Made by a program: the position numbers and the translations under genes | Part shown: positions 6,267-58,622 of the stretch, piece after piece | Layout: each line of letters opens with the position of its first letter | Numbering within the stretch: the first letter of the stretch is position 1 | The notes under the pieces: generated by a model | Seen by the model: the letters and a program-made list of their open reading frames with translations, nothing else | Told to the model about the DNA's origin: nothing | Database searches by the model: none | From: a virus | Virus record (IMG/VR): IMGVR_UViG_3300030419_004788 | Span: 10,642 to 74,641 of that record | Strand: one strand, 5' to 3' | DNA length: 64,000 nt

Positions 6267-6672
6267 CTAAATTTTCCTTATCTGCTTCTATACCACAGTA
6301 AGGTCCAGTTTTAAATTCATAAAAAATTGTATCTTCTTCTAAAACTTCCAACGAATGTCCACCCCTGTATAATACTATACAATCTCCATCTTTAATTTCA
6401 GTTTCAAATATAACGGAATCGTCTAAATCATAAAATACACTCTTTACTCTCCCTTTAAGGACCACCCATGCTTCTTGTGTGATGTCTGTGTGTCTGTCAA
6501 GTGGTATATGTTTGTGTGCATCAACTTTTGTATTCTTTTTTAAGTATCTACCAGACACCTGCAAATATTCTTCTGTTGGACTTATATCTGTTCTATATTC
6601 TGATAAATCTTCATATCTCAATAATGAAAACAATAACTTATCTGGCTCTATTTCTGAATACACCTTTTGCAT
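6259..6672 (-). CDS. Small cupin-like protein
   Basis: The 137-residue protein has a cupin-like pattern: VDAHKHIPLDRHTDITQEAWVVLKG provides histidines and a glutamate followed by the turn glycine, then GDCIVLYRGGHSLEVLEED gives the second cupin motif with His. WbuC- and dTDP-sugar-isomerase-like small cupins look similar. It overlaps the GT10-like gene by TAATG and the unknown protein by 8 nt. It probably modifies or binds a sugar nucleotide, but the reaction is unknown. Confidence 0.55.
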   Translation of the reverse strand: MQKVYSEIEPDKLLFSLLRYEDLSEYRTDISPTEEYLQVSGRYLKKNTKVDAHKHIPLDRHTDITQEAWVVLKGRVKSVFYDLDDSVIFETEIKDGDCIVLYRGGHSLEVLEEDTIFYEFKTGPYCGIEADKENLDV

Positions 6673-7514
6673 TATTCATTTTCCTCAAAATGATTTCTTA
6701 TAGCATTGGCAATATCTACATGTTGTGAAATACTATAATCTCTCATAGCAACTTGAAAGTTATGCTCTACTGCTTCTTTCATTTCTTCATATAGTTCAGG
6801 ACTTACTCTGTCTAAAATATCTGCCAATTCTTCTATTGTATTAAACCTAAGAATCCCATCTTCTCTGAAACCGAAGTCAGATATGTTTGGACAACCAAAA
6901 TAAATAGGAACTGTTCTAGTCCAAAAACAACCAAGTGGTTTTTCCTGCCAATGGTTTTTCTGTATATGATTTTCGGTTGCAATAGAAAACATTGCATCAA
7001 ATATAATTGTTTTATTATAATCGTCTAGAACCTCTGGTGGATAAGTTTGAGGTAGCAATTCTATATTTGGATATGGTGTCCTTCTTCCAGAATAAACTTT
7101 ATGAGGAACACTATGATTTAACAACAACTCTGTTGCAGGTTTTCTAATCCAGAAGCCATGTCTAGATTCTGACCAATTAGAAACCAAATATGAAACGCAA
7201 AATTTCTTTTCATTAAATTCTGGTTTATAACTTGGGTCCATATATGGGTCATGTCTTACATGGTGGAAAAAAGAATTGGGTATTCTTTCTAAAATTTCTT
7301 CATTGTATGTTGTCATTATTGCATCGTATCTGGGAGCATTCTTTACTAATTCATCCAGAGGAGTACATGCCCAAGGCGGTTCACTATCGATGTAGACATA
7401 CTTTACTCCCTCTTGTCTTTGAAATGAACTAATGTCACGAGTATCAACATGACATTCAAAAGGAAGTTCAAGTTTTAAGTTTTGCCATGGTCCATAGCAT
7501 TTAGCGAGGGGCAT
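6672..7514 (-). CDS. Fucosyltransferase-like glycosyltransferase (GT10 family)
   Basis: The 280-residue protein has the GT10 donor-binding region in its C-terminal half: FSIATENHIQKNHWQEKPLG followed by RTVPIYFGCPN, matching the family pattern of a Glu-Asn, a downstream Glu-Lys and a VPxxxG loop. GT10 enzymes transfer L-fucose from GDP-fucose, usually alpha-1,3 or 1,4. Gmd and Fcl in the same island provide the donor. The N-terminal acceptor half is not recognisable. The gene overlaps the sulfotransferase gene by 14 nt. Family confidence is good; linkage and acceptor are unknown. Confidence 0.8.
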   Translation of the reverse strand: MPLAKCYGPWQNLKLELPFECHVDTRDISSFQRQEGVKYVYIDSEPPWACTPLDELVKNAPRYDAIMTTYNEEILERIPNSFFHHVRHDPYMDPSYKPEFNEKKFCVSYLVSNWSESRHGFWIRKPATELLLNHSVPHKVYSGRRTPYPNIELLPQTYPPEVLDDYNKTIIFDAMFSIATENHIQKNHWQEKPLGCFWTRTVPIYFGCPNISDFGFREDGILRFNTIEELADILDRVSPELYEEMKEAVEHNFQVAMRDYSISQHVDIANAIRNHFEENE

Positions 7515-8157
7515 AATTCATTTTCCTAAAATATAAAGAATCTTTTATATTATAATTAAAATTTGTCAAGTCATTATAGTAAATACTGTCTACCGTTTTA
7601 CAAACAGAGTCTAACTGTTTTTCGGTTAAGTCGTGGTAGTTGTTAAGTCTGGCAGAAACACTAAACTTTACATCTTCAAATTCTTCCAGATTTAGGTCGG
7701 TTTGTATAGAATTAAAACAATCATCTTCCAACTTATAAACCTTATCATACTTGTCATTTGGTAAAGACATTTCCGAAATCGGCATAACATGGTCAAATTG
7801 CGGTGTCCACTCTTTGGTGTTATTTAATACATCAATATAATCTTCAAAGGTGTTCACACCAAAATGACTTGTATCAGATACAACATATTCATAATAATAA
7901 GAAATTATCCTATCATGTGGATTGCGAACAACTAAAAATTTAAAATGATTTGGATAATTGATTAAATCATGTACTGGTTTGACTATAGGCGCCATGTTCC
8001 TATGTAAAGGTGAATCATATACCTCTACCTTTTCTTTTGGTACAACAACCATACCATCCAAATATCTCTGTAGGTGATATTTTAGAGAACTGCTTCCTGC
8101 TCTTGGAATAAAATGGTAAACAAAATTTTTACTGGTTGAAACCAATAGTTGATTCAT
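7501..8157 (-). CDS. Carbohydrate sulfotransferase-like protein
   Basis: The 218-residue protein resembles the sulfotransferase-2 family, which moves sulfate from PAPS to a sugar hydroxyl. The 5'-phosphosulfate loop is FHFIPRAGSSS-like (HFIPRAGSSSLKYHL near the N-terminus) and the 3'-phosphate motif is VVRNPHDRIISYYYEY. ATG 8155-8157 is chosen over an ATG 24 codons further up because GAGG lies 6 nt upstream and the extra residues would be encoded inside the preceding gene. No PAPS synthesis gene is in the window, so PAPS would come from the host. Neighbouring GT10 and HAD genes suggest the target is the phage-made glycan. Confidence 0.78.
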   Translation of the reverse strand: MNQLLVSTSKNFVYHFIPRAGSSSLKYHLQRYLDGMVVVPKEKVEVYDSPLHRNMAPIVKPVHDLINYPNHFKFLVVRNPHDRIISYYYEYVVSDTSHFGVNTFEDYIDVLNNTKEWTPQFDHVMPISEMSLPNDKYDKVYKLEDDCFNSIQTDLNLEEFEDVKFSVSARLNNYHDLTEKQLDSVCKTVDSIYYNDLTNFNYNIKDSLYFRKMNYAPR

Positions 8158-8464
8158 TACAAACCTCAAAAAAAGTATTGGCGAGTTCCGCCTTATCATC
8201 AATATAAACATCAGCAAAGAACTTGACACCAGTTCTCAATTCGTGGTATTTGAGTTCCCAAGAATCTATTTGGTTCTTGGTGATATCATACCAATCCTTA
8301 CCTTTTGTCGCACCACTTCCCCTTGCGGTGTCAATCATAATATAATGTCCTTCATCATAAAGACGATTTACCATAAGAATGCGTTCTTTGAATGGTTCTG
8401 CGTTTTCATAATCTAAAGTCCTCTGCGTACAGAGTGTACCGTCTAGGTCAAAGCAATATCTCAT
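8129..8464 (-). CDS. HAD-superfamily phosphatase-like protein
   Basis: The 111-residue protein opens with FDLDGTL, the DxDGT nucleophile motif of HAD hydrolases, has a second motif IMIDTARG, and a late VYIDDKA acidic motif. The cap is minimal, as in small sugar-phosphate or capsule-associated HADs found next to SIS isomerases. It follows the GmhA-like gene with an ATGA overlap, so it may dephosphorylate the product of that enzyme. The exact substrate is unknown. Confidence 0.8.
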   Translation of the reverse strand: MRYCFDLDGTLCTQRTLDYENAEPFKERILMVNRLYDEGHYIMIDTARGSGATKGKDWYDITKNQIDSWELKYHELRTGVKFFADVYIDDKAELANTFFEVCNESTIGFNQ

Positions 8465-9030
8465 GTTGTAGTGCCATATTTCCTTACAAGTTCTGATTTA
8501 ATAGTTGGACATTCAAACCCAAGATTATATACTATTTCATAAAAACACATTACAGAAAGAATTTCATGTTGATGGAAATAATCATTGCCAAAATCAATTT
8601 CTGGAATGTTGCTATCTAAGCATGTTGATTTTGAACCAGAAATTAAAGCACCGTTCCAATTATGTCTTTCGTTTGCCCAATTTAATGCTGAAACAACATT
8701 CTTTGAATTGCCAGAACCAGAGAAACCAATTACCATACTCTTTTCATTTGGGTTAGAATAATGCTCCAACCAATTCTTAAAAATGCTCTCGTATCCGTAA
8801 TCATTTGCAATTGAAGTTAAAAGTGATTGACTATCAAGACACCATACTTGTTTATCTGTAAGTCGTGTAATATCGGCAGCGGCATGACTTGCTACTGCCA
8901 TGTTCCCACCATTACCAATCACATAAATTGTATCTGCGTCCTTGATTCCACGAATAAGTCTTTCCCACTCTGGCGTTTCTGTTTTTGCTTGAAGTTGTTC
9001 TTCTAAATGTCCAAAAGGTGCGTGATTCAT
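8461..9030 (-). CDS. SIS-domain phosphosugar isomerase, GmhA-like
   Basis: The 189-residue protein is a single SIS domain. IYVIGNGGNMAVASHAAADITR near residue 36 and the later MVIGFSGSGNSKNVV match sedoheptulose-7-phosphate isomerase (GmhA/DiaA group), where these loops bind the phosphate. ATG 9028-9030 is preferred to a TTG nine codons upstream because AAGGAG lies 6 nt before it and it gives an ATGA overlap with the aminotransferase stop. Together with the HAD protein it could form part of a heptose or related phosphosugar route, but no heptose kinase or nucleotidyltransferase is seen nearby. Confidence 0.8.
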   Translation of the reverse strand: MNHAPFGHLEEQLQAKTETPEWERLIRGIKDADTIYVIGNGGNMAVASHAAADITRLTDKQVWCLDSQSLLTSIANDYGYESIFKNWLEHYSNPNEKSMVIGFSGSGNSKNVVSALNWANERHNWNGALISGSKSTCLDSNIPEIDFGNDYFHQHEILSVMCFYEIVYNLGFECPTIKSELVRKYGTTT

Positions 9031-10175
9031 GTGTTTCTCCTTATAATATCCACACAAGTTTTAATGTCGGTTTCCGTTACCGACAAATTTGGTCTAAGTC
9101 TTACTGATTTCTCACCAGTAGGATTACATATCATACCATCATTTCTAATATTTTCAACAAAATTATTTCTACTTTCTCTATTATCCATGTCAAAAGCAAC
9201 CAACAATCCAATCCCCCTAACATTAGATAGTTGCGGTATAGTGTATAGTTCTTTGGTCAGAACTTTACCTTGAATATCTGCATTTTCTAAAAGATTAAAC
9301 TGTTCGTATGCTTTCATAATATATGTAGAACGAAGCATATCGACAATATCCCCATCAAATGTTACACACAATCTGCTTCCCTTCTCAAAGGAAAAATCAG
9401 ATGTTGTCATAATTCCAGATACTTGGCTTTTCTTTCCGAAAATTACAATATCTGGTTCAATTTCTAAGTGCTGAAAATACCAAGGTTTTCCAGTTGTTCC
9501 AAATCCAGTTTGGACTTCATCTAAAATTAAAGGAACATTATATTCTTTTGCTTTAGATGCAATTTCCTTTAAAAATGATTTATTTAAATAGTTATCGCCA
9601 AAAGTTGCTTGAATGGGTTCTACCAGAATTGCACAGATGTCACCCTTTTCTAATTCTTTTATCAGTTCATCTATAGTATTAATCTTTGGCCAATTTAAAT
9701 CTGGAAATCCGTTAAGCCTTTCATTTACAGGATAAAATTTACTAGTTGTAAAATTACCATAAGAATGAATACCATGAAAACTATTGTTGATAGCGACAAC
9801 CCTTGTTCTTTCTGGTGGTGTGTTATCCATCGCCAACTTGATAGCACATTCTACTGCTAAAGAACCTGTACAAGTAAAATGAAATTTATTATATTTACCC
9901 AACCCTGCAAACTTATAAAAATCTTCACAGAACGCATCATATACATCGGTGTGAAATTCGCAGTTTGTAACCTTTACTGTTGATATGCTTTTCATTTGTT
10001 CGTGAAAATTTCTATCAAAAATACTATGGTTATATCCTATAGGAAGTGATGAATACATTCCAAAGAAATCCAAGTACTCTCTATTTGTGTTCTTATCAAA
10101 TAGATAACTTCCGTGACTTTTTTCAAAGTCAACACGAATATTCCAAAAACTCATATTAGTCGTTTTTATAGACAT
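9027..10175 (-). CDS. Class III PLP-dependent aminotransferase (lysine 6-transaminase-like)
   Basis: The 382-residue protein has the class III fold signature: a CTGSLAVECAIKLA cofactor phosphate region, NNSFHG, ILVEPIQ, LILDEVQTGFG with the ring-contacting Asp, and FGKKSQVSG, whose lysine should form the Schiff base. The FGKK-Q-V pattern is typical of L-lysine 6-transaminase rather than glutamate-1-semialdehyde aminomutase. In this context it may aminate a sugar or supply an amino-acid decoration; that is inference. It overlaps the NeuA-cupin gene by 20 nt. Two in-frame ATGs (10175 and 10154) exist and neither has a strong ribosome-binding site. Confidence 0.8.
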   Translation of the reverse strand: MSIKTTNMSFWNIRVDFEKSHGSYLFDKNTNREYLDFFGMYSSLPIGYNHSIFDRNFHEQMKSISTVKVTNCEFHTDVYDAFCEDFYKFAGLGKYNKFHFTCTGSLAVECAIKLAMDNTPPERTRVVAINNSFHGIHSYGNFTTSKFYPVNERLNGFPDLNWPKINTIDELIKELEKGDICAILVEPIQATFGDNYLNKSFLKEIASKAKEYNVPLILDEVQTGFGTTGKPWYFQHLEIEPDIVIFGKKSQVSGIMTTSDFSFEKGSRLCVTFDGDIVDMLRSTYIMKAYEQFNLLENADIQGKVLTKELYTIPQLSNVRGIGLLVAFDMDNRESRNNFVENIRNDGMICNPTGEKSVRLRPNLSVTETDIKTCVDIIRRNT

Positions 10176-11289
10176 GTGCTACATCTGCTCTACTTACTGC
10201 TAATCTTGCGGCTGGTGTATCCCCTGCACAGGTTATACAATGCCATTTATTTTTTGGAATGAAAACCAAATCACCCTTCCTTACCCGATGGACTTCATCT
10301 TCTATTTCAAAATCCCATTCTCCTTTAAGAATGTACCACCACTCATTCCACGATGGATGATAATGTCTTCGATTTCCTTCTCCAGGCCTTTGATGGATGA
10401 TACAACAACTGTTACTTTCTGTATTTACTAGTCTGTGCATCCAAGATTCTTCTCCATATCTCTCCATCACTTCGTCCACACTAACTAGTTGTTTATTTTC
10501 TTCTTTGTAGTTGTCTTTCTCCACACCATCATTACGCAAAATACTTGGCACATGTACTTCCGAGTGAACACCCGAATGTAACTCTGGGTCATAGTACTCT
10601 GGTTCTATATACTCTGTAGAGTTTATGCTATCTACTATTCTTTCTGCTAACATAAAATCATCAACTGTATCAATGTCCACAGAAGAAAAACCACTGATAC
10701 TAAAGAATCCAGTTTTTCCATTTCCACCATGATACGCAGAATTAAACAATCCCATATTTTCTATAAATTTATCACACTCCCATGCCATTAATCCACAAGC
10801 ATATGCTTTAACAGGTTCTAAAGATTGTGATGGCGGGGTTTTCTCTTTCTGTTTAAAATTTAATGGTTGATTCTCATATAAACATTCAATCTGAACATCC
10901 TTAGTTGAAATCAAGGTATCATAGTCACTCTCCATCATCATGTCATAAAATTCACGAATGTCAGAAGATGTCACGAAGGGGGATGTTGGTAAAAATTGAA
11001 ATATAATATCACAATTTATATTCTCTATAAAGTCTAAAACAAAATCATCATTTGTTGCTTTATCAGAAGATAGTCTATTTGGTCTTTTATAAAATTTGAC
11101 TCCGTAATCGTTTGCAATGGATTCAAATATATCAGATTCTGAATTAATATAAATCTCATCAAATGCGCCAGAATTAACCACTGACTCAACAATATAAGCA
11201 ATCAATGGTTTACCACCAATGAGTCTTAAATTTTTATTATGAACTCTTTTACTTCCTAATCTAGCAGGTATCATTGCCACTGTTTTCAT
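10156..11289 (-). CDS. Fusion: CMP-acylneuraminate synthetase-like nucleotidyltransferase + cupin
   Basis: The 377-residue protein has two domains. Residues about 1-225 match the NeuA/KdsB cytidylyltransferase family: MIPARLGSKRVHNKNLR is the nucleotide-binding signature, followed by INSESD, RPNRLSSD and FLPTSPF. Residues about 265-377 are a cupin with RRHYHPSWNEWWYILKG (two His, Glu and turn Gly) and a later KNKWHCI. The first domain would activate a nonulosonic or related sugar as CMP-sugar; the cupin may isomerise, epimerise or bind it. I know of no standard NeuA-cupin fusion. The next gene is GT29-like, the family that uses CMP-sialic acid, which supports the reading. Confidence 0.82.
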   Translation of the reverse strand: MKTVAMIPARLGSKRVHNKNLRLIGGKPLIAYIVESVVNSGAFDEIYINSESDIFESIANDYGVKFYKRPNRLSSDKATNDDFVLDFIENINCDIIFQFLPTSPFVTSSDIREFYDMMMESDYDTLISTKDVQIECLYENQPLNFKQKEKTPPSQSLEPVKAYACGLMAWECDKFIENMGLFNSAYHGGNGKTGFFSISGFSSVDIDTVDDFMLAERIVDSINSTEYIEPEYYDPELHSGVHSEVHVPSILRNDGVEKDNYKEENKQLVSVDEVMERYGEESWMHRLVNTESNSCCIIHQRPGEGNRRHYHPSWNEWWYILKGEWDFEIEDEVHRVRKGDLVFIPKNKWHCITCAGDTPAARLAVSRADVAHVYKND

Positions 11290-11292
11290 ATA

Positions 11293-11988
11293 TTATTCCT
11301 TAATAAAAAACATTTCATCATATTTAACATCGTTCAATATTTCTTCAAAATAAGAATCAATTTCTATCCTATCTTCATTTGGATAAATATCATATTTAAA
11401 GAATTTATATTGTGAATCTGGGTCATGTCTATCATCTCCATTAATAGATAAATGATTCTCAAACTCTGAAATATTCCCACCTTCAGAAAGATATTCTGAA
11501 TCATATAATGTTCTGAAAAAATCTAGTCCAAACAAATGAACCTTTTTAATATCAAACGACAATATATCCACTAATGTGGTAGTACCAGAACTTGGTCTGC
11601 CATATATATTTTCCCTAATTGGATAATAAACATCATCACTCATCCATCTTGTAGGTATTGTGTCATTAAGATTTTCTGACCACTCTGGGTGTGTAAAGTA
11701 TTCTGACTTTGGATATGTACTGCAAACAAACTTAACACCACAATTCTTCCACAACTCTCCTTCAATTGGTCCACCTGCATCTGCAAAGGTATCGAGTGTG
11801 TTGTATAACACATCCGTTCTTTTACCCACATCATTCTCTTTTTCTTCTGGTACAGGCAATGCTCTATTTAATCTAACTACCACATCGAAAGAATCAATAT
11901 ATTCTCCCCTTCCTTGTCCTTTTAGGGAACTACCAGAAGTAACCAATGCAATTGTTTTACCTTTTAAAAATTCAGCATATTCTTTCAT
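11293..11988 (-). CDS. Sialyltransferase-like glycosyltransferase (GT29 family)
   Basis: The 231-residue protein contains a segment resembling sialylmotif L (ALVTSGSSLKGQGRGEYIDSFDVVVRLN-type, with the GSSLKG loop, the IDSFD turn and the RLNRA end) and one resembling sialylmotif S (GRPSSGTTTLVDIL followed by KVHLFGLDFF). GT29 enzymes transfer sialic or related acids from CMP-sugar donors. ATG 11986-11988 is chosen because it forms an ATGA overlap with the preceding stop. The longer version would start inside that gene. The donor could come from the adjacent NeuA-like protein. GT29-like proteins are uncommon in phages, so this deserves attention. Confidence 0.75.
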   Translation of the reverse strand: MKEYAEFLKGKTIALVTSGSSLKGQGRGEYIDSFDVVVRLNRALPVPEEKENDVGKRTDVLYNTLDTFADAGGPIEGELWKNCGVKFVCSTYPKSEYFTHPEWSENLNDTIPTRWMSDDVYYPIRENIYGRPSSGTTTLVDILSFDIKKVHLFGLDFFRTLYDSEYLSEGGNISEFENHLSINGDDRHDPDSQYKFFKYDIYPNEDRIEIDSYFEEILNDVKYDEMFFIKE

Positions 11989-12668
11989 AATCGAATATCT
12001 TTCAACACCGAACCATAAATCTCTGAACCCTGTTCTACTAAAATTGGATGCAACCAATATGAATTTAATCTCTCCATTAAGATAAAATAATTCATTTCAA
12101 AATCTATTGGTCCACAAAACTTCTCAAGTCCATACTCCATCACTTCAGCGGCTTTTCTAGAAATTAAATAAAGTCCTGTCCCTCTTGATTCATTTTTTTT
12201 ATAAAAATATTTTTCTTCTTTAATGCTGTTTGGAACTTGACCACAACATCCACCACATATGTGAACTATGTCTGCACCCTCTGGTAATTCTTTCATAAAT
12301 TTATTGAAATCATCAACAAAATTGTCAGTAAACATAGAATCGTCCTCTGATATCAAAGCATAGTCAGAATCTGTTTCTAAAAATTTTCTATACGCTTCTC
12401 TATGTTTTATTACTAAAGATGCAACTGGTTTTGCCAATACACGAAATGGAGGAGTAGAAAGATATGTTGGTAGATTCATTCTTTCATCCCATAAAGAAGT
12501 ATCAAGAATTTCTTGCTCATAATCATCTTCAAGTTCGTCACCATCATAATCTAAAATCCAAGTTGCATTTTTAACTCCAATTTTTTCCAACTCAGATTCC
12601 ATAAGAACTTTTCTTTCTTCTAATTTCTTACAATGGCAAATATAAAATGGTAATTCGTGTAAGTTCAT
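11985..12668 (-). CDS. Glycosyltransferase family 25-like (LPS-type)
   Basis: The 227-residue protein resembles GT25 lipooligosaccharide galactosyl- or glucosyltransferases. It opens with a short strand then CKKLEERKVLMESEL, and carries the acidic ISEDDSMF motif that binds the metal and nucleotide sugar. A GTGLYLISRKAAE segment, as in GT25 proteins, follows. It is joined to the next upstream gene by a TAATG overlap. No donor can be assigned, but hexoses from UDP-sugars are usual for the family. Confidence 0.75.
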   Translation of the reverse strand: MNLHELPFYICHCKKLEERKVLMESELEKIGVKNATWILDYDGDELEDDYEQEILDTSLWDERMNLPTYLSTPPFRVLAKPVASLVIKHREAYRKFLETDSDYALISEDDSMFTDNFVDDFNKFMKELPEGADIVHICGGCCGQVPNSIKEEKYFYKKNESRGTGLYLISRKAAEVMEYGLEKFCGPIDFEMNYFILMERLNSYWLHPILVEQGSEIYGSVLKDIRL

Positions 12669-13471
12669 TATTCTTGCTCTCCAACTATAGACAAAACTTT
12701 TTCTATTTCTTCTTTATATGAATTGTATGGTCTAATAGAATGGCAATCGTGATACCATCCATTTTTTAAATCTTCTATGGTGTAATCAAAACAATTAAAT
12801 CGAACTATCTCATTATTGTCACCATATTTTATACATTCTTTTCTATTAATTCTTCTATGTCTGTCTTTTGGCGGTAAGTGTGTATCTACACCAGAATCTC
12901 TAACTTTCTTTGTTACTAATACCTCATCAACATTCCATTTTGTCAATTCTGGTCCATCCCAATTTTCTGGAGTGTGTTTATTATCGACTTCAGTTTCTTG
13001 TATTCCACGACTTACAAAGTCATAGAAAGAATCTTCCACTTCCAAAACTTTCTTAAAGTCTTTACCTAAAGCAATATTATAACATATAGGATAATAAACT
13101 CCTGCATATTCTTCTTGTATAGAGGAATTTAAATTTGTCCAAGTTGGTTTATTTTCCATATAGTGATTTATGTTATCTCTCCACCATCTTTTAGAAGCAG
13201 GAAACATATCTATATCACTTGTTATCCATAACACATCTGGTTCTTTCATAGGATACCACAATCTTGCAAGTTGTGCTTGTGTGTGAATTGGTAAAGATTC
13301 ATCTGGAGTAATTGTGTGTATTTCTCCGTATTCGTCCTCTACTTTTTTATTTCCAACATGAATAAGAACTGGCGTTATGTTAAAAACCTCTTTCCATATT
13401 TTAGAAATAGGTTTCCAAAAATCCAAATAGTATGGATTGTCATCACAAGAATGTATAACTTTAACTTCCAA
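12668..13471 (-). CDS. Putative GT-A type glycosyltransferase
   Basis: The roughly 267-residue protein shows a VLWITSDIDMFP segment near residue 80, an Asp-x-Asp motif at the end of a hydrophobic strand as in GT-A glycosyltransferases, preceded by QAQLARLWYP. The rest does not match a family I know. TTG 13469-13471 is the likely start because a GGAGAGG element lies 7 nt upstream; another TTG two codons earlier would overlap that element. It overlaps the previous gene by 11 nt. Its position among transferases supports a glycan role. Confidence 0.6.
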   Translation of the reverse strand: MEVKVIHSCDDNPYYLDFWKPISKIWKEVFNITPVLIHVGNKKVEDEYGEIHTITPDESLPIHTQAQLARLWYPMKEPDVLWITSDIDMFPASKRWWRDNINHYMENKPTWTNLNSSIQEEYAGVYYPICYNIALGKDFKKVLEVEDSFYDFVSRGIQETEVDNKHTPENWDGPELTKWNVDEVLVTKKVRDSGVDTHLPPKDRHRRINRKECIKYGDNNEIVRFNCFDYTIEDLKNGWYHDCHSIRPYNSYKEEIEKVLSIVGEQE

Positions 13472-14303
13472 TATCAAACCTCTCCAATAAAGATTTTACT
13501 CTTTCATCATATGTGTGTTTTTTTGCAAATTCTAATCCAGCCTTTGCAATGTCTGTCATATCTTTATATTTTACCATAGTAATATATTCTGTCAAGGAAT
13601 CTTCATCCTTATACATCAAACAATTAACACCATCTTCAAATCCCAATTCTTCATATTGAGGATTATAATTTGTAAGCAGTATAGTGCCACATCCTATAGT
13701 TTCAAACGACCTATAGTTTATATCGTTTGCTATGTTTAAATTAAAATGACACTTATAAGAATTTATTGCTTCTACCATAGCATCACCAATTACGAAAATG
13801 TCAAGATGTAAGTCGTGTTCCCTCTTTAGGTGTTCTAATAACTGTTCTCTGTTTGCATAACTTCCGCAGAAGCCGACATCGATTGTTTTATCTACATCGT
13901 CCATAGGAAATATCAAAGAATCGTCATAAGCATTTGGAAACCAAATGTGGTAATCTTCTTTAACAAAATCTTTGGTAGAATGAAGTACATAATCATAATT
14001 TCCTTCTTCATAATTTTTCTCTACTTGTTCTTCTCCTAAAAAGTGTGCATCTATACTCCATATAAATTTCTTTGGAGATTTTACCTCTGCTAATGACGGC
14101 ACCCATTTGGTATTATACTGTTCTAGGTTTATTATCCAATCATATGATTCCCAATCTGGAATAGTTTCATAATTATCATGAAGGTTTCCCCACACATCAC
14201 AGTTATGACCCAATTTAGAAAATGACCTCTGTAGGCAAAAACATTCTCTAAAATTTCTGTTTGCATCATGATGACCATTTTCTTGTATCAATAGGATATT
14301 CAT
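13461..14303 (-). CDS. GT-B glycosyltransferase (CgeB/Glyco_trans_1_2-like)
   Basis: The 280-residue protein has the layout of CgeB-like glycosyltransferases. The N-terminal half contains IWSIDAHFLG and a VLHSTKDFV segment. The C-terminal half holds DVGFCGSYANREQLL, FNLNIANDINYRSFETIGCGTILLTN and EELGFEDGVNCLMYKDEDSLTE, the family's donor-binding elements (the Glu in SFE, then a gain-of-visibility loop before a y-x-d-x-x-e-l end). It overlaps neighbours at both ends (ATGA upstream). Substrate unknown; UDP- or GDP-sugars are usual. Confidence 0.75.
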   Translation of the reverse strand: MNILLIQENGHHDANRNFRECFCLQRSFSKLGHNCDVWGNLHDNYETIPDWESYDWIINLEQYNTKWVPSLAEVKSPKKFIWSIDAHFLGEEQVEKNYEEGNYDYVLHSTKDFVKEDYHIWFPNAYDDSLIFPMDDVDKTIDVGFCGSYANREQLLEHLKREHDLHLDIFVIGDAMVEAINSYKCHFNLNIANDINYRSFETIGCGTILLTNYNPQYEELGFEDGVNCLMYKDEDSLTEYITMVKYKDMTDIAKAGLEFAKKHTYDERVKSLLERFDIGS

Positions 14304-15007
14304 GTTTGACTTGCCTCCAACATTACAGCATACTCTTGTGTTGGATTATCATTTTCATCATATACTTGACCAACAAAATCATTCCAATCCTTTCTAGGTT
14401 TAGGAAATGGAACTCCATTAAAATATTCAATTGAATTATTTAGTCTATTCAACAATGGAGTTCCAACAAAAAATTCATCATGAGATAGTGCATTGTTTGA
14501 AATCTTTGGCCAAACATGCTCCCTTAAAAAGTTTTGGTCTACTTGTATGAAATTGCCTTTACTATATTCATTTATAGATTCTGTTATACCTTTAAGAATT
14601 CCGTTTCTGCATCCCCACATACCACCAAGAATTTGTGTGCCATGATATGGGTGGTCCCTCATTATATGGAAATCTTTATCGGACTCTAACCATTCGTTTA
14701 CAGCATAAACTTCTCGTTCAGATACTCTTGAATCTGTATCTCTAGACAGAACTACATCATCACTATCCGCAGAAAGAAATCTCCAAAACATTCCTGTCCA
14801 ATCTCCTTCTTCATCCATCAAAATAACTTCAGTGTTTGAAACTTCGTTCAGTTTATCTAATATATCTTTCGGTACACTTCTGCCACAATAAAACCTACCA
14901 ATCCACCCAGAATAAAGTTCTTGAACCAACTCTGCATTCTTTATTGCTCCGATTGTATATTTTGGGTTATCTCCCCAAAGACTAAAACTAACTATTTTGT
15001 TTGACAT
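14300..15007 (-). CDS. Putative glycosyltransferase with SRDTDSR motif
   Basis: The 235-residue protein begins with VSFSLWGDNPKYTIGA and later has DDVVLSRDTDSRVSERE, where the paired aspartates at the end of a strand resemble a GT-A metal motif, followed by HIMRDHPYHGTQILGGMWG. The combination occurs in small glycosyltransferase-like proteins of viral and bacterial surface-sugar clusters. No specific family or donor can be given. It overlaps the GT10-like gene upstream by 16 nt and the CgeB-like gene by 4 nt. Confidence 0.6.
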   Translation of the reverse strand: MSNKIVSFSLWGDNPKYTIGAIKNAELVQELYSGWIGRFYCGRSVPKDILDKLNEVSNTEVILMDEEGDWTGMFWRFLSADSDDVVLSRDTDSRVSEREVYAVNEWLESDKDFHIMRDHPYHGTQILGGMWGCRNGILKGITESINEYSKGNFIQVDQNFLREHVWPKISNNALSHDEFFVGTPLLNRLNNSIEYFNGVPFPKPRKDWNDFVGQVYDENDNPTQEYAVMLEASQT

Positions 15008-16032
15008 TTTATATTCTTTTCAATTTCTTCTTTTACTCTGTCCCTCAATGGTCTTGCGTATTCTTTTGCTCTCTCATAGTTTTCATCGATATATGGCTTC
15101 ATCTGTTCATATGTTTCTGGTGTAATCTGGTTGCACAATTCTATAATATCTGATTCGCTGTCAACTATTATCATTCCTCTTGTATCAAAGAAATCACCAA
15201 TATTTGGACATCCCCAATAAATTGGCACTGTCTTTGTAATTAATGCATCTATTAATTTTTCAGAAAAGTAGTTTTCGACAGAAGTACTTTCGATTGCAAT
15301 ATGAAATTGGGAACTAAAGAGTTTTGCCTTATCGTCTTCTGGTAAAAGGAACATTGCGTCATCTGCACTCCAAGACATGGGGTCCCTTTGAAAATTCATT
15401 TGTCTGTACATTTCCATACTTTTTACATCCATTCTTACAGGATATCTTGTACTGCTGTAAAATAGAGTAGGATTTTTAATTAGCAACCTTCTAACAAAGA
15501 CATCTTTTCTTTTGTTGTATCCTTCTAAATCTCTGTTATGGAATGTGCAAAGAAAACTTATTTCAAATCTTTTGTTGTCGTGTAGGGTTTCCAATGATAT
15601 ATCATATGAGCCAAGTCCGTCTGGATGGTCTATATTTTCTAAGTTCTTATTTAACCAAGTACTACCATATGGAAACATTACTGCATTTCTGCACTTATCT
15701 AAAATTTCTATATCTGTTGTCAATATTAAATCGTATGCATGAGCCCATTGAAGTACCATATCTATAGGTTCTCTGTTTGGAGAAGTAATTGGTTCTGTGG
15801 CTGTCATATAAACTTTAAAGGCATCTGGATTGTCAAAGTATAATGAATTTGGATGTGAATGTCCATCATCATATGAACCCATAAATGGGTGTTCTTTTTT
15901 CCATTCTGCAAAATCTACCGAACCCATATGCTCATTTTTAAACCTACACACATCTATTTCTACAGGAATATCAAACATCATTGGTTCATCCCCAAACAAA
16001 TAATAAGAATTAAAAGAAATTGCTTTATGCAT
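14992..16032 (-). CDS. Second GT10-like fucosyltransferase
   Basis: The 346-residue protein has a C-terminal GT10 donor region: FHIAIESTSVENYFSEKLIDALITKTVPIYWG, then CPNIGDFFDTRGMIIV. The Glu, the downstream Glu-Lys and the VPIYWG loop are conserved as in the other two GT10-like proteins of the island. The N-terminal half, longer than in the first copy, probably sets acceptor choice and is unrelated by eye. It overlaps the third GT10-like gene upstream by 8 nt, suggesting expansion within one operon. Confidence 0.75.
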   Translation of the reverse strand: MHKAISFNSYYLFGDEPMMFDIPVEIDVCRFKNEHMGSVDFAEWKKEHPFMGSYDDGHSHPNSLYFDNPDAFKVYMTATEPITSPNREPIDMVLQWAHAYDLILTTDIEILDKCRNAVMFPYGSTWLNKNLENIDHPDGLGSYDISLETLHDNKRFEISFLCTFHNRDLEGYNKRKDVFVRRLLIKNPTLFYSSTRYPVRMDVKSMEMYRQMNFQRDPMSWSADDAMFLLPEDDKAKLFSSQFHIAIESTSVENYFSEKLIDALITKTVPIYWGCPNIGDFFDTRGMIIVDSESDIIELCNQITPETYEQMKPYIDENYERAKEYARPLRDRVKEEIEKNIKCQTK

Positions 16033-16936
16033 TTAGTTCTCCTATCTTTTCATATATCATGTCATCTGCTAATTTCATATTTTTTACTCTCTCAAAATTA
16101 TCTTCTATTGCTTCTTTTCTATTGTGATATTCTGACTCGTCAATGTTTTTAATGGTTTCGCACATATCTTCTATACTTCCTTCAAGAAATATTATACCTT
16201 CTGTGTTAAAATAATCACTTATTGACTTTGGTCCATAGTAAAGAGGAACTGTACCTGTTGCAAAACAATCTGTAATTTTTTCTGTAAAATATGTGTCGTA
16301 AATATCATTCTCTACTACTATGGAAAACATATAATCATTTAGTGCTATCGATTTATCGTGCCACATATCGTCTGGAATTCCTTTAATGTGACATCCGTGT
16401 TTATACCCTAAAGGAATTCCTGTTATTGTTCCATAAGAATGTACTATATCTCCTATCTTCTCATATAATTCATGTCTTAACTCATGTCCGTTGCACCTTC
16501 TTTTTTTGGAGGCAAGAAAAGATATTAATTTAGTCTTATCATAAATTTTATAATTCTTTTCTGGAGTCCACGGAAGATTACTGCCAGCAAAACAAAAATG
16601 AATCTTTTCGTGTTTATCCACCAACTCTTTTTCGCATGTGAATATTCCATCATATGCATCTACAATAGAATTTAATATATTTTCATCATCAAATGCTTGT
16701 CTTAAAACAGGAATTATGGCTCTAGATTCGCAAAACCATGCATATCGTTTTTTACCATTTGCTCTGGGGAACATACATCCTTCTGGTATCGAATAGTCCA
16801 TCCAAATCTCAATCTCTTGTTCTGTATCTGTCCATGTAAAATTTTCTGGAGTTCTGTTAGAACAAGAAGATTGATGATGACTAAATGGAATTCCTCTGCC
16901 TTGGATTTTCAATCTATATCTCCTGGCGATTGCCAT
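16025..16936 (-). CDS. Third GT10-like fucosyltransferase
   Basis: The 303-residue protein has the GT10 signature YMFSIVVENDIYDTYFTEKITDCF, followed by GTVPLYYGPKSISDYFNTEGI. An FCESRAI strand in the N-terminal half and a WFCESR-like segment may belong to the acceptor lobe. The gene overlaps the preceding NDP-sugar transferase gene by 28 nt. With two other GT10-like genes and the GDP-fucose pathway it implies a multiply fucosylated, or variably linked, product. Confidence 0.72.
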   Translation of the reverse strand: MAIARRYRLKIQGRGIPFSHHQSSCSNRTPENFTWTDTEQEIEIWMDYSIPEGCMFPRANGKKRYAWFCESRAIIPVLRQAFDDENILNSIVDAYDGIFTCEKELVDKHEKIHFCFAGSNLPWTPEKNYKIYDKTKLISFLASKKRRCNGHELRHELYEKIGDIVHSYGTITGIPLGYKHGCHIKGIPDDMWHDKSIALNDYMFSIVVENDIYDTYFTEKITDCFATGTVPLYYGPKSISDYFNTEGIIFLEGSIEDMCETIKNIDESEYHNRKEAIEDNFERVKNMKLADDMIYEKIGELNA

Positions 16937-17547
16937 TGTATTAATTTTTCATCAAGACCAAGAGTTCTTAAAGATTCCATTTTCCCTTCTGAGTCTGCAA
17001 GTCCCATAGTTATACAAGTATTTTCATTGGTATATCCTGGCCAAGTACAATATTCTCCACCCACCATTGCAACTTTCATTTGTTTAATGAACATAGGTAT
17101 TAAGGAAAAAAGAGGTTCGTGGTCAAATATACCTTTATTATTTTCTATAATATCTCTTGTTGTGGAAATCCATGCATGTATAAATTCTTTTGCTTTTGGA
17201 GTGTTGCCAAAATACATTGGAGATGCTCTTACACCTGATATTTGAGCATTAGACGATGCAATACCCATGTCTGTATCTTCATCAAAGGTATCAAAAATGT
17301 CTAACGGTTTATGCAATTTACTGTCAATGTCCATCCATAAAACAGGACGATTAAGTTCTTCCATTGTGTCTAATATAAATTGTGGTTTGCTAAGACAGTT
17401 TAATTGATAAGAACCAAGAGATTCTTTCTCTTTAATGTGATATGGAATGCTCAAAGATTCGCATTCTTTTATAATTCTATCAGCATTATCACTGTAATAT
17501 GTTCTATCTTCTATGTCACTGTAAAAACTTATAAGCACCGTGTTCAT
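16909..17547 (-). CDS. Putative nucleotide-diphosphosugar transferase
   Basis: The 212-residue protein carries RPVLWMDIDSKLHKPLDIF near residue 68, an Asp-x-Asp metal and nucleotide-sugar motif flanked by hydrophobic strand residues, as in GT77- or capsule-type GT-A transferases. Later NAQISGVRASPMYFGNTPKAKEF fits the glycine-rich region before the acceptor lobe. It is the first gene of the sugar island, 17 nt downstream of regA, so the island may be transcribed together with the replication genes. Confidence 0.62.
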   Translation of the reverse strand: MNTVLISFYSDIEDRTYYSDNADRIIKECESLSIPYHIKEKESLGSYQLNCLSKPQFILDTMEELNRPVLWMDIDSKLHKPLDIFDTFDEDTDMGIASSNAQISGVRASPMYFGNTPKAKEFIHAWISTTRDIIENNKGIFDHEPLFSLIPMFIKQMKVAMVGGEYCTWPGYTNENTCITMGLADSEGKMESLRTLGLDEKLIQWQSPGDID

Positions 17548-19641: not shown

Positions 19642-20358
19642 TTATCTCGCAGAATCGTAAGGATTGTGTCCATTATAAACAGAATCAGACTCCAGAGCAA
19701 CCCAATATGTAAGGTCGTCATTTACTTTATTAAATTCACTTACAACTTTGTCGCTGATGTTGATATCATAATCACCAGGCAACATTTTAAGATTTTCTGC
19801 TTTAAAGTAAAAAGTAAAATCTGCACCAGTTGGATTGCTACCGATAGTAACAGAATAATTGTTGGTTGTAGAATCTGATTTATCTAGTGCAACGATTTCG
19901 ATATCTTGTTCGTTTGAACGAATCGCAATGTCTGATACTTGTAAAACTGAAGCCGCACGAAGAATATCACTAAACACAGTCTGTGTTAATGTGCAACTTA
20001 CTACTGCTTCTGGCATATTAATTTTTTTGCTAACCGTAGTAAGCAATCTTGGCTCTGAATAATAATAAGTAACTTCAGTTGAATTGTTTTCTTCTAGTAT
20101 TTTAACATGATTTTCATGAAATTCAAATTCTGGTTTATTAAATAATGAAATTGTTCCCAAGAATTTACTCAAATCCCAAATACCAAATTCTGTATCAAAA
20201 TCTTCTTCTACAGTTGCTTCTGACATAACATTCTTAATGGGGGAAATTGTAGTTAGTACATTTCCAGGCTTTACAAGAATGTTTGAATTAATTGTAGAGA
20301 AGTTTTTAAGAACTTCTAATGTTCTGTTTGAAAGTGTTATTGCCGTTTGCGTTGTCAT
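19642..20358 (-). CDS. 45: Sliding clamp gp45
   Basis: The 238-residue protein matches gp45: RTLEVLKNFSTINSNILVKPG and the IWDLSKFLGTISLFNKPE segment correspond to the T4 clamp, and a trimer of such proteins encircles DNA. Besides processivity, gp45 activates late transcription together with gp55 in T4, and gp55 is present in this window. The upstream gap contains a GGAG ribosome-binding site. Length is close to T4 gp45 (228). Confidence 0.93.
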   Translation of the reverse strand: MTTQTAITLSNRTLEVLKNFSTINSNILVKPGNVLTTISPIKNVMSEATVEEDFDTEFGIWDLSKFLGTISLFNKPEFEFHENHVKILEENNSTEVTYYYSEPRLLTTVSKKINMPEAVVSCTLTQTVFSDILRAASVLQVSDIAIRSNEQDIEIVALDKSDSTTNNYSVTIGSNPTGADFTFYFKAENLKMLPGDYDINISDKVVSEFNKVNDDLTYWVALESDSVYNGHNPYDSAR

Positions 20359-20568: not shown

Positions 20569-21402
20569 TTAAAACTCCTCTATGTGTTGCATTAAGTTTT
20601 TTAACCTGTTATCAATAAAATAGTTTAGAATGTTGTTTCTACTACCGATAGGCTCTTTTTCAAATTCATCAAGTATGATTTGTCTTATTTCATCTGGTAT
20701 ATAATTAAAATCAATCATTTGTTGATTTCTTTTCCAGTTTGGCTCGGATGTTAATTCGTCTAAAGTTTCTCTTAACATACTCACCTTTTTTGCACCGCAA
20801 GGCTTTTGCCTTTTTTCTTTATTTACAAAAGTATCATCATCAGAAAGAACATTTGGCACTCCATCAGAAGAATCTCCCTTTATTATATGTTCTATGATAA
20901 AATTCTCTGGTTCTTCACAAACAATATAACTTTTCTTCAATGGACTATATTGTTTAACATTTTCATACCTTTGTAATTGTTGAAAATCTTTATCACTAGA
21001 AACAATTAATATTTTTTCTTGTTGGTGATACTTTTGGCATAAAATTGCAATGATATCATCTGCTTCTATTTTATTGAGTTTTATGTTTTTATATGGAAAA
21101 TTTGATGAGATTTCATCATACATTGTGTTCATAATATCGTGAACATAATTCCAATCTAAATCAGATTTATCTCTATTAGTCTTTCTGTTTGCTTTATAGT
21201 GTGGATATAAATCTCTCCTCCAATAGTTGCCTCCATCATGACAAATTACTATTTCTCCATACTGGTTATAAAATTTAGTTCTATACATTCTATATGTGTT
21301 GAGTATCAAATGACGAATTATGTCTTCATTTATCTCCATATTCATTTTTAAAGACTGATATAAACTTGCAATAACTAACTGATTGTTGTCTAATAATATA
21401 AT
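20569..21402 (-). CDS. rnh: RNase H / 5'-3' exonuclease (FEN family), probably ATT start
   Basis: Removes RNA primers from lagging-strand fragments in T4. Conserved motifs are YWRRDLYPHYKANR, EADDIIAILC, IVSSDKDFQQLQ and IIKGDSSDGVPN, which carry most metal-binding aspartates. The first ATG (21345) would give 258 residues but omit the N-terminal strand with the first catalytic Asp. The frame remains open upstream to a stop at 21418-21420 and encodes ILLDNNQLVIASLYQSL, matching the T4 segment around Asp19. No ATG, GTG or TTG occurs there. ATT 21400-21402 has AAGGA exactly 7 nt upstream, so it is the best start; ATA 21399 is an alternative. The final length is about 277 residues. Confidence 0.85.
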   Translation of the reverse strand: MILLDNNQLVIASLYQSLKMNMEINEDIIRHLILNTYRMYRTKFYNQYGEIVICHDGGNYWRRDLYPHYKANRKTNRDKSDLDWNYVHDIMNTMYDEISSNFPYKNIKLNKIEADDIIAILCQKYHQQEKILIVSSDKDFQQLQRYENVKQYSPLKKSYIVCEEPENFIIEHIIKGDSSDGVPNVLSDDDTFVNKEKRQKPCGAKKVSMLRETLDELTSEPNWKRNQQMIDFNYIPDEIRQIILDEFEKEPIGSRNNILNYFIDNRLKNLMQHIEEF

Positions 21403-21731: not shown

Positions 21732-22115
21732 CTATGACTTCTTCATGTTTTCAAATAACTCTTGTGTACTACCAACATTTGCAGGTTTGTTCTTTCTGAC
21801 TACCTTCTTTGCTGGCTTTTTCTTAACTATAGCATTTCTACATGCATTAATTTTTACATCTGCATGACGGCGCATATATATCCTATCTTCTTTGTTGGTG
21901 TTTCTTTGCGACCAAAAAGGTTTTTCTGTAATCCACTCCCAAATACAATTACCATTCCAACAAATTTGAATTCTTAGGTCTTTACCCCTTTCAAATCCAT
22001 TCCAATCTTCTTGGTTCGCAGTTTTGTAAGTCTTTAAAGAAAAATTAGAAGACAAAAGATTTAACTGGTCTTTCATATAATTTTCGTATGAAACATTTGA
22101 CATTTTATTTTTCAT
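21732..22115 (-). CDS. Hypothetical protein
   Basis: The 127-residue protein is not recognised. It contains tryptophan-rich stretches (CWNGNCIWEWITEKPFW) in the middle and a lysine-rich segment (VKKKPAKKVVRKNKPAN) in the last third. An internal ATG at 22103 could be the true start; no clear ribosome-binding site separates the two. It is wedged between the glutamine synthetase fusion (1 nt gap) and the small fibre-like protein, in the same operon. Confidence 0.55.
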   Translation of the reverse strand: MKNKMSNVSYENYMKDQLNLLSSNFSLKTYKTANQEDWNGFERGKDLRIQICWNGNCIWEWITEKPFWSQRNTNKEDRIYMRRHADVKINACRNAIVKKKPAKKVVRKNKPANVGSTQELFENMKKS

Positions 22116-22116
22116 A

Positions 22117-23610
22117 TTATGTAGTTATAAGAAGTTCTTCGTTTACTTTAATTATTGTTGTGTACAAGTAATTAAATGCTTCATATGGGTCGATATTTGC
22201 CGCTGGTCGCCTATCTTCTAGGTGTCCTTTTCCACCACTTTGCATGGTAGATTGTGGAATACGAATAGAAGCACTTCTATCCATTTCTCCCCATGTAAAT
22301 TCGTCCATAGATGAAGTTTCATGTTTGCCAGTAAGTCTTCTATTATTTTCTTCACCATAAACACCTATTGATTCTTGGTGATATCTTTCCATACTTGCAC
22401 AGAGCAAATTGAGATATGAAGTATCAGATTCTCTCCTCATATAATCTGTGGAAAAATTAATATGTCCACCAGAACCATTCCAATCACCATCTACTGGTTT
22501 TGGGTTATAAGAAATTGATAATTGCATATCTTCTGCCAATCTCTGTAATAAGAATCGAGAAATGATTACATCATCCGCTGCCTGTATTACCATCTTTGGA
22601 GCGGTTTGATATTCCCACTGTGAAAGCATTACTTCTGCATTTGTTCCTGCAATACCTATGCCAACTTTGTTACATAAAACAGCATGTGTTTCTGCCAATT
22701 TTCTTCCCTTTGTCACATCTGCACCAACACCACAATAATACTTTCCTTGTGGTGGAGGAGTATCATCATCATAATCCGACCAACCGAATGGATTTCCTGT
22801 AATTGGATTGGTTATAATATATTCTTGCTCAAATCCTACTAGCAACATATCACTTTTTTGTTCTGCTTCTCTTAGTCCCCTTTCTCTTTCAGAAACAGTG
22901 CTTGATAATTTTGCTCTAGTATTTGTTTCGTGGGGGTTTCCTTCAACATCTACTACCTCACATAAAACAATATATGAAATTGGTTTTCCACTTAACATTG
23001 AGGGTGGGTCTAATGGATTTTCAACAATCTTTATTGGATTTAATCCGCAATCACTTTCTGTTGTGGTTGCTTGTAATGTTGAAGAACCATCAAATCCCCA
23101 TTTTGGTATAAATCTAATCATAGCATTCACATTATCTGGCATTCTTGACAAATCCATTCTTTGATATCGTGTTTTGCTTCTAATATTTTTTGGTGTGTCG
23201 CCATCTAACCAGATATATTCCAACTTTAAAGTTTCAATTTGTTGTTGTGGTGGTTGTGGTCTTTGGGGTGGTGCAGGCATTTCCTCACCTTTTGCCCACT
23301 TTTCTAAATCGTTTTTTTCTCTAAATCCACAAATCTGATTACCAGTTTCAGCATCAATAAACTGTGGTGTACCACATTGTGCATTATATTTTGCTTTTAT
23401 TTCATTTGCTCTTTCAGCCTCATCGGGTTTGGTAACATCCAATGTGGTTATGTCATAACCTTCTTCTGTTAATTCTTTAACTACTGGGTCTGCTTTCTTA
23501 CACCATCCACAGCCAGGATTCATGATATAAAGAAGGTCGTGCTTTTCTTTTTTTGCTCGTTTTGATTTCGACTTCTTTTTTTTATCTTTACCACACTTTT
23601 TACAAGCCAT
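22117..23610 (-). CDS. Fusion: thioredoxin/glutaredoxin-like domain + type II glutamine synthetase
   Basis: The 497-residue protein has a lysine-rich start with CKKC, then a redoxin domain (about 25-108) with a PGCGWC active site (Cys34, Cys37) and a GTPQF cis-proline loop, a proline/glutamine linker (111-124), and a full eukaryotic-type (GSII) glutamine synthetase domain (125-497). The latter shows WGFDGSST, VGFEQEY, YYCGVGAD, GTNAEVMLSQWEYQ, NGSGGHINFS, RRLTGKHETS, SASIRIP and HLEDRRPAANIDPY, which carry the metal, glutamate, ATP and ammonia ligands. It makes glutamine from glutamate, ammonia and ATP. Glutamine feeds nucleotide synthesis, so this would be an auxiliary metabolic gene. All key motifs are intact; the redoxin fusion is unusual and may regulate the enzyme or act separately. 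Confidence 0.93.
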   Translation of the reverse strand: MACKKCGKDKKKKSKSKRAKKEKHDLLYIMNPGCGWCKKADPVVKELTEEGYDITTLDVTKPDEAERANEIKAKYNAQCGTPQFIDAETGNQICGFREKNDLEKWAKGEEMPAPPQRPQPPQQQIETLKLEYIWLDGDTPKNIRSKTRYQRMDLSRMPDNVNAMIRFIPKWGFDGSSTLQATTTESDCGLNPIKIVENPLDPPSMLSGKPISYIVLCEVVDVEGNPHETNTRAKLSSTVSERERGLREAEQKSDMLLVGFEQEYIITNPITGNPFGWSDYDDDTPPPQGKYYCGVGADVTKGRKLAETHAVLCNKVGIGIAGTNAEVMLSQWEYQTAPKMVIQAADDVIISRFLLQRLAEDMQLSISYNPKPVDGDWNGSGGHINFSTDYMRRESDTSYLNLLCASMERYHQESIGVYGEENNRRLTGKHETSSMDEFTWGEMDRSASIRIPQSTMQSGGKGHLEDRRPAANIDPYEAFNYLYTTIIKVNEELLITT

Positions 23611-23622
23611 TATCTTACTTCC

Positions 23623-25224
23623 TTATTCTGGTTTCCAAAATATAAATACAGGTTCATACTTTAAGTATTTCCCATCAACTTGACAGTAATTTTTACATGT
23701 GGGTTTACCATCTTCACCCATTCTGTTTTGTCCAGGCATTCCTTCTAATGCCATCTTTATCGTATATTTATACATCATACCACAAGATTCAAGTATGTCA
23801 ATACTATCTTTCTCTATAGGCAGATATTTCCCACTCACCAACAAATCTGCGACATTCCATGCCATATATCTGCCTGGTCGCAAGTATTCTGCACAGGTTT
23901 CCAAAGTCGGTGCAAGGAAGCCATGCCTCCACGACTCATAAGATGAGCCATACTTTTTATAAGATTGGTTTTCATCTTCACTATATGCTTCACGGTTAAA
24001 ATATGGCGGGGAAGTAAATATAAAATCTACTTCTCCTTTGTATTGTTTAAAGTCGGGATGGAGGTGGATTTCTTCCGAACCTTCTTGAAAAATGTGGTAA
24101 GTGTTTGTTTCGGAAAAGAATGGATTTCCTCTATAAGTTCTGGTATTGTAAAAATCAGCCAAAGACTCATATTTACTACCTGACACATCGCCATAAAAAT
24201 TATCAGGATTAGGGTCAGTACCAACATAATGCACCCTACGGTCATCCCTAACACCCATAGCACCAAGTATACGACCACCCCAGCCAGCGGACGGGTCATA
24301 GATGACAATTCGTTGTTGTCCTTTAACATCTTCAGTAAATCTCTCATATAAGTATTTAGCAGTCATTGGTGGGAAGTTTACCGCAGGTTGAATATATCCA
24401 ATACGATATGCGGCAAATGCTTTTGGAAACATCTTCTTTCCCTTTTGATATACACGAATATTGTATCTTTTATCGTCTGACATATTCTCGATATCAAATG
24501 TAGAATAGTGTCTGTACTCCAACCACCCCTTATCTTTATATTCTTGTACTTCATCCTTTGTTAAATTAAGAATTTCACTTTGTTCTACTTGGAAGTATCC
24601 ACTATTTAACCCTTCTCGTATCTTTACTTCTTCTAACATAAAATCATATCCCTTAAAGATATTACGATTATTATGAAATGCATCCATCCATGCATGTGCA
24701 TCTTCTGTTGCAACTATTGCATACTTCTTATTGTTTGTGAACGCACTCTTTGCGTGTTCATATAGGGAATCTCTACGAAAATGGCGCATTCCACCCTTTA
24801 CCATTTTATCTAAATGTCTATCATCTGCAAATAAATCATATATGGAATATCCGTTATCTTTTTCTGTATAGTTGATGCGTGTCTGCATCATATTACTGAA
24901 CCATTGGTCTGCTTCACCGCCAATTCTGGACTTGTTAATAATTACATCATCTTCAACATCAGAAAGTTCATCACTATATGCAAACTTATGTACAGGGTAT
25001 TCTGCAATCTTATTAAATTGCTCTATAATTGCTTCTTCGTTTTTTCCTGTTCTTGGTGGGCAGCCATACTCATCCCATGATTCTTTTACTACCTTTCGGA
25101 ATTTGATTACCCATTCCCTAAACTGGTCGGGTGTCATTTCCAAAAGGTCTTCAAAATTGCAATTAATATCTGAATTAATCACATGGTCGTTTCGTTCGTA
25201 AAAATGTTTTGTATCGGTCATCAT
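23623..25224 (-). CDS. Solitary DNA amino-methyltransferase
   Basis: The 533-residue protein contains a SAM-binding motif I (YDPSAGWGGRILGA) and a catalytic motif IV (FTSPPYF) of N6-adenine or N4-cytosine methyltransferases, in the order I then IV. The N-terminal 280 residues are unassigned and may recognise DNA. A GTDPNPDNF segment follows motif I. There is no restriction enzyme nearby, so self-protection or regulatory methylation is likely. It is joined to gp46 by ATGA and followed by the glutamine synthetase fusion 12 nt later. Confidence 0.8.
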   Translation of the reverse strand: MMTDTKHFYERNDHVINSDINCNFEDLLEMTPDQFREWVIKFRKVVKESWDEYGCPPRTGKNEEAIIEQFNKIAEYPVHKFAYSDELSDVEDDVIINKSRIGGEADQWFSNMMQTRINYTEKDNGYSIYDLFADDRHLDKMVKGGMRHFRRDSLYEHAKSAFTNNKKYAIVATEDAHAWMDAFHNNRNIFKGYDFMLEEVKIREGLNSGYFQVEQSEILNLTKDEVQEYKDKGWLEYRHYSTFDIENMSDDKRYNIRVYQKGKKMFPKAFAAYRIGYIQPAVNFPPMTAKYLYERFTEDVKGQQRIVIYDPSAGWGGRILGAMGVRDDRRVHYVGTDPNPDNFYGDVSGSKYESLADFYNTRTYRGNPFFSETNTYHIFQEGSEEIHLHPDFKQYKGEVDFIFTSPPYFNREAYSEDENQSYKKYGSSYESWRHGFLAPTLETCAEYLRPGRYMAWNVADLLVSGKYLPIEKDSIDILESCGMMYKYTIKMALEGMPGQNRMGEDGKPTCKNYCQVDGKYLKYEPVFIFWKPE

Positions 25225-52778: not shown

Positions 52779-52805
52779 TTTTTATTCCTATAGAATCTCC
52801 ATTTT

Positions 52806-52813
52806 TATTTATG
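52806..52813 (-). promoter_or_regulatory. Late-promoter-like box before the 1653-residue gene
   Basis: Minus strand CATAAATA, one mismatch from TATAAATA, 27 nt before the ATG and overlapping the stop of the 1922-residue gene. Likely a weaker late promoter. Confidence 0.45.
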
Positions 52814-58577: not shown

Positions 58578-58610
58578 TGTGTTTCATTCCTTGTAGAAGT
58601 TTCCATAATA

Positions 58611-58618
58611 TATTTATA
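58611..58618 (-). promoter_or_regulatory. T4-type late promoter box before the 1922-residue gene
   Basis: Minus strand TATAAATA within GATATAAATATATTATGG, perfect match, 33 nt before ATG, with AAGGAA as ribosome-binding site. Spacing and setting fit a T4-type late promoter. Confidence 0.7.
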
Positions 58619-58622
58619 TCAA

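Follow-up and report, generated by a model that had tools for sequence, protein, structure and literature searches.

The locus analyzed here raises the question of why a phage should carry a glutamine synthetase (GS) joined in frame to a redoxin, and of what the two halves of such a protein might do. The original prediction placed the joined gene at 22117-23610 of the window (the whole 64,000-nucleotide stretch of DNA under analysis, positions 10,642 to 74,641 of IMG/VR record IMGVR_UViG_3300030419_004788), and the frame is indeed there: it starts with ATG on the minus strand and runs for 497 aa with zero internal stops. The anatomy that had been proposed for it, a CGWC redoxin followed by a linker and a GS, is likewise borne out by the predicted fold, by structural matches and by alignment with type II glutamine synthetases (GSII), and comprises the following features:

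22117 to 23610, minus strand: fused gene for redoxin, Pro/Gln linker and type II glutamine synthetase; 497 aa in a single open frame that recurs in 28 other viral contigs
23266 to 23538, minus strand: thioredoxin-fold domain, aa 25-115, supported by alignment, a predicted fold (pLDDT 90.6) and Foldseek matches to thioredoxins
23227 to 23265, minus strand: Pro/Gln-rich linker between the domains, about aa 116-128, poorly conserved and of variable length in the fusion alignment
22117 to 23226, minus strand: type II glutamine synthetase domain, aa ~129-497, with every catalytic motif present

In the window protein the linker reads PAPPQRPQPPQQQ (about aa 112-126), and its residues 114-123 have low pLDDT in the whole-protein predicted structure, the confidence of which is modest (pLDDT 68).

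The source record is a virus of 122,976 bp, possibly a fragment, with the genome of a marine T4-like phage (portal gp20, capsid gp23, prohead protease, gp44 clamp loader, gp45, UvsW, UvsY and RNase H) whose capsid protein is closest, among the best matches listed, to those of Methylophilales, Synechococcus and Pelagibacter T4-like phages (about 58-61%). T4 core genes lie on both sides of the GS gene in the window and in its relatives, placing it on a bona fide phage genome. The fusion loci examined share one operon order (SbcD, SbcC, putative methyltransferase, fusion, two small genes, RNase H, gp45 and gp44), and the neighbors of the fusion include:

23623 to 25224, minus strand: putative DNA methyltransferase (TSPPY motif), the upstream neighbor, bordering a cargo slot of variable content; phrog_498 at 1.1e-6, and PF01555 at 0.0026, below cut-off
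21732 to 22115, minus strand: downstream neighbor with no assigned function; in relatives that lack GS it comes immediately after the methyltransferase gene
20569 to 21345, minus strand: T4 RNase H-like 5'-3' exonuclease of the same operon (PF02739, PF09293)
19642 to 20358, minus strand: gp45 sliding clamp of the same operon (PF09116, phrog_223)

A gap of 12 nt separates the methyltransferase gene from the start of the fusion. The putative methyltransferase, which is conserved in 80 loci, has a conserved N-terminal half of ~280 aa with no Pfam match.

The GS half belongs to type II. Its residues 127-485 match GSII structures such as Streptomyces coelicolor GlnII (4bax, E = 1e-73) and maize GS1a (2d3a, 6e-72), with which it is homologous over this whole span at about 38% identity in the structural alignment and shares the catalytic motifs; matches to GSII structures range from about 1e-73 to 1e-66, and those to type I enzymes (GSI) are at about 1e-6 or weaker. 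In a Pfam search of the fusion protein, Gln-synt_C is found at 1.7e-17, Gln-synt_N and Glrx-like remaining below their cut-offs. What sets the phage protein apart from bacterial and eukaryotic GSII is the added N-terminal redoxin and linker, and the location of its gene inside a phage replication operon. The claim that the enzyme is complete, with all catalytic motifs, stands: as read off an alignment to maize GS, DGSS, ExE (261/263; EQE in the window protein), YYCG, E326/E333, NGxGxHxNxS (NGSG-H-N-S in the window protein), RLTGxxET, R445, R450 and EDRR are identical in nine of nine fusions, and the same residues, Y291 excepted, do not vary among the 16 phage GS compared. The window GS thus keeps all the metal, ATP, glutamate and ammonium site motifs of GSII.

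GSI is regulated by adenylylation of a tyrosine in its C-terminal part, a part that GSII enzymes do not have. The original prediction held that the phage enzyme lacks it too, and this is what we find: the chain ends ~30 residues past EDRR and the Gln-synt_C profile is matched to position 253/344 only, so that the part with the adenylylated tyrosine is absent, as in other GSII. The description of the enzyme as eukaryotic-type, on the other hand, holds as a class name only. In the GS phylogeny, from which one bacterial row (L193, a bad row with a very long branch) was left out, the window GS falls within phage GSII, its nearest relatives being other phage GSII and then bacterial GSII. Whether fused or free, all GS of the operon slot group with two other phage GS in a single clade (support 100/99), separate from the sampled bacterial GSII. 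Recent acquisition from a host is unsupported, the nearest bacterial GSII found being 40-44% identical and lying outside the phage slot clade. GS is present in 576 of the first 600 viral candidates, and hence in at least 576 stretches, mostly as a free-standing gene; viral GSII is frequent and, beyond the T4-like operon slot, occurs in several unrelated genome contexts.

Judging from its motifs and class, the GS half is most likely catalytically competent and would use ATP to turn glutamate and ammonia into glutamine in the infected cell, beyond the reach of the adenylylation control that the host exerts on its own GSI, so raising the supply of glutamine. Nucleotides and many amino acids receive nitrogen from glutamine, and such an enzyme would therefore give the phage a direct handle on the nitrogen flow of infected marine bacteria.

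The active site of the redoxin half, CGWC at aa 34-37, and a cis-Pro-type motif, GTP at aa 80-82, are both invariant in the redoxin alignment. CGWC is present in 25 of 25 distinct GS-linked redoxins and altered in just one of 43 distinct redoxin domains (CAFC in L264). The best Foldseek matches of the predicted domain are thioredoxins (TM about 0.66, probability 1.00), and its CxxC lies at the N-terminal end of helix 1, with a cis-Pro loop present as well, as the thioredoxin fold demands. With the redoxin region alone, Glrx-like, Thioredoxin and Glutaredoxin all fall just under the Pfam cut-offs (21.9 vs. 23.5 bits for Thioredoxin and 19.2 vs. 22.9 bits for Glutaredoxin against the curated values), and we therefore name the domain thioredoxin-like and place it in neither of these two families. 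It shares fold, CxxC and cis-Pro-type motif with the thioredoxin family, and differs from it in having CGWC in place of the usual CGPC and in its length of ~91 aa. No close relative was found among isolate phages at E 1e-5, and a search of 399 bacterial genomes at E 1e-6, run without a positive control, gave no match. The domain would act as a cytosolic thioredoxin-like dithiol reductase on a flexible Pro/Gln tether.

The nature of this domain is best appreciated from the company it keeps elsewhere. Related phages have the same redoxin and Pro/Gln linker on cargos of at least two other kinds. One is a ~65-aa helical domain, which bears them in some ten further contigs of related marine T4-like phages, where the adjacent gene mostly has an AGPMRG motif; these proteins match the window protein in redoxin and linker and differ from it in cargo and genomic neighbor. 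The other is a set of longer proteins of 225-356 aa (L243, L244, L247, L252, L258-L268), headed by the redoxin, in which a W..NDHLPNL motif is repeated and the ends are Lys-rich or coiled-coil; in other T4-like contigs these adjoin RegA-like, gp32-like and UvsX-like genes (names given by reading the sequences, with no family search). In the genome of the window itself GS carries the redoxin, and the helical protein (L205:13502-13744), beside its AGPMRG gene, is bare; in one relative (G027) the helical protein carries the redoxin and GS is lacking, and another (G008), which lacks the redoxin, has GS and the helical protein each on its own. The AGPMRG gene of the window genome (L205:13847-14227, outside the window) is probably deoxyribosyltransferase-like, and in two contigs (L217 and L226) a bare and a redoxin-fused copy of the helical protein lie in tandem.

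Because related phages attach it to quite different proteins, the redoxin resembles a portable attachment more than a dedicated GS switch. We consider it probable, from comparison of the sequences, that the window gene encodes a two-part protein, an active GS and a portable, autonomous thiol-reductase module that is not a switch specific to GS, and that the redoxin acts alone or on a partner common to the other cargos. It is conceivable, if on balance doubtful, that in marine T4-like phages a single swappable redoxin-linker adaptor is attached to GS, to the small helical protein and to the DHLPNL repeat proteins, and either carries them to one shared replication-associated partner or provides that partner with reductant. 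The redoxin might also supply reduction for ribonucleotide reductase (RNR), as the original prediction proposed. No RNR was found in the 123-kb record of the window, which is perhaps a fragment; RNR-like matches occur in two relatives, one of them without the redoxin.

The foremost alternative is that the redoxin couples GS to redox state, as the original prediction had suggested; it would reduce a disulfide or protect catalytic cysteines so that the enzyme is active only under reducing conditions. The strict conservation of CGWC and the in-frame linkage in 28 other contigs agree with such a role, as do four cysteines that are nearly invariant in fused GS (C217, C293, C313 and C404). These four are, however, common to free phage GS, and no cysteine of the GS is specific to the fusions; moreover, free GS without a redoxin occupies the same operon slot in relatives (L018-L024, L029), and the same redoxin and linker are fused to other cargos and exchanged separately from GS. 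We thus regard this coupling as unlikely to be the reason for the redoxin. Nonetheless, the retention of the fusion across distantly related GS could reflect a selected functional coupling, and regulation of the attached GS by the redoxin is possible even with exchange of the module.

Slightly less probable is that the redoxin serves as a tether, binding a common host or phage partner and bringing the cargos, GS included, to it, with reductase chemistry perhaps secondary. Host thioredoxin binds T7 DNA polymerase, which offers a parallel, and the constant N-terminal position of the redoxin, the Pro-rich linker always next to it, the varied C-terminal cargos among T4-like phages and the nearness of redoxin genes to replication genes would all suit this role. 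The candidate partner is, however, only hypothetical, and the CxxC, kept intact in all but the single altered domain, suggests chemistry.

A further reading concerns the GS half, which might act as a GS-like ligase on some other amine, protein or DNA, for instance together with the adjacent methyltransferase. To assess the pairing of the two genes, we turn to the slot itself. In the 80 loci gathered through the methyltransferase gene, the gene immediately after it was scored: 16 loci have the fusion, eight a free GS, 13-14 nothing extra and about 38 some other gene, the remainder being truncated. A 157-kb relative with a portal protein 65% identical (G027) has the same operon without GS, its methyltransferase gene overlapping the counterpart of the gene at 21732, and a search of its record found no GS. 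GS is hence an accessory gene at a fixed position, given that the content of the slot varies and that it is empty in this relative. The putative DNA methyltransferase is constantly adjacent in this clade, as the ligase reading would have it, but the slot next to it often holds other genes or nothing, so that the pairing is not specific; in addition, every ammonium- and glutamate-site motif of true GSII is retained. We therefore deem a ligase of this kind improbable. Among the many different genes seen in the slot of relatives (L276-L354) are an epimerase-like gene and a family of basic proteins of ~230-385 aa with no assigned function.

Finally, the fusion can hardly be an assembly chimera or an inactive remnant, a reading for which we found no supporting point, since an unbroken redoxin-GS frame with the identical joint is present in 28 further, independent IMG/VR contigs at 46-82% identity to the window protein (protein and alignment scans), both halves are under purifying selection, as indicated by the low Nei-Gojobori dN/dS of closely related pairs (redoxin 0.07-0.28, GS 0.10-0.22), and the alignment to maize GS reveals no missing motif or ligand. 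The search for the same fusion in viral metagenomes that had been proposed alongside the prediction has thus been answered, and neither of the two findings that had been named as fatal to it, a chimeric joint or missing ligands, came true.

The redoxin-GS fusion also appears to be new. It was expected not to be a usual phage gene, and some 50,700 phage records contain no instance of it; judging by title and abstract, none of the open-licence papers that came up on the subject deals with such a fusion. Viral GSII, for its part, is already known. A type II GS of ocean metagenomes (GOS viral group) was noted in 2007 (PMC1821046), GS has been reported in aquatic jumbo phages (moraphages) in 2025 (PMC12619734), and it features also in a large jumbo-phage survey (PMC13037316). 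As in the first two of these reports, the GS studied here is virus-borne and aquatic, and it falls among phage GSII; in the relevant passages neither describes a redoxin fusion, and free GS occurs in other genome contexts. It is thus the fusion that appears to be the new part.

More generally, the fusion is a clear natural case of domain shuffling within phage genomes, in which close relatives with the same operon have the redoxin on GS, on another protein or not at all. Because they differ in this way, whether the module regulates its cargo or is a mere fellow traveller is directly testable. The trees point to an eventful history. GS-linked redoxins do not form one clade in the redoxin tree, built on 91 columns, and constraining them to a single clade is rejected (AU p = 0.0015). 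In the GS tree, the free GS of L018 is nested within the fusions (support 100/95), implying either a loss of the redoxin in this lineage or repeated gains of it. In a close subgroup, synonymous distances are mostly 0.24-0.80 for redoxin and methyltransferase (one short pair reaching 1.00) and 0.98-2.15 for GS, and this disparity makes the linker look like a recombination joint for the exchange of halves. RNase H dS is also high in the same pairs, and hence the higher GS values may partly reflect a wider divergent tract. Presumably, a redoxin module used on other cargos was joined, in one lineage, in frame ahead of the slot GS, and has since been exchanged and, in some phages, lost.

Two other regions of the window deserve mention. 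A run of sugar-nucleotide and glycan genes (821-17547, minus strand) adjoins the clamp-loader and clamp genes and comprises a GDP-mannose dehydratase-like gene, a DegT-type aminotransferase, a class III aminotransferase, a cytidylyltransferase-cupin fusion, a methyltransferase and several GT10-like glycosyltransferases; two epimerases of this run are located between gp45 and gp44 in relatives. Further along, at 47817-61886 on the minus strand, GC is raised and GC skew strong in three very long frames of 1653, 1922 and 1087 aa, whose products are probably virion proteins.
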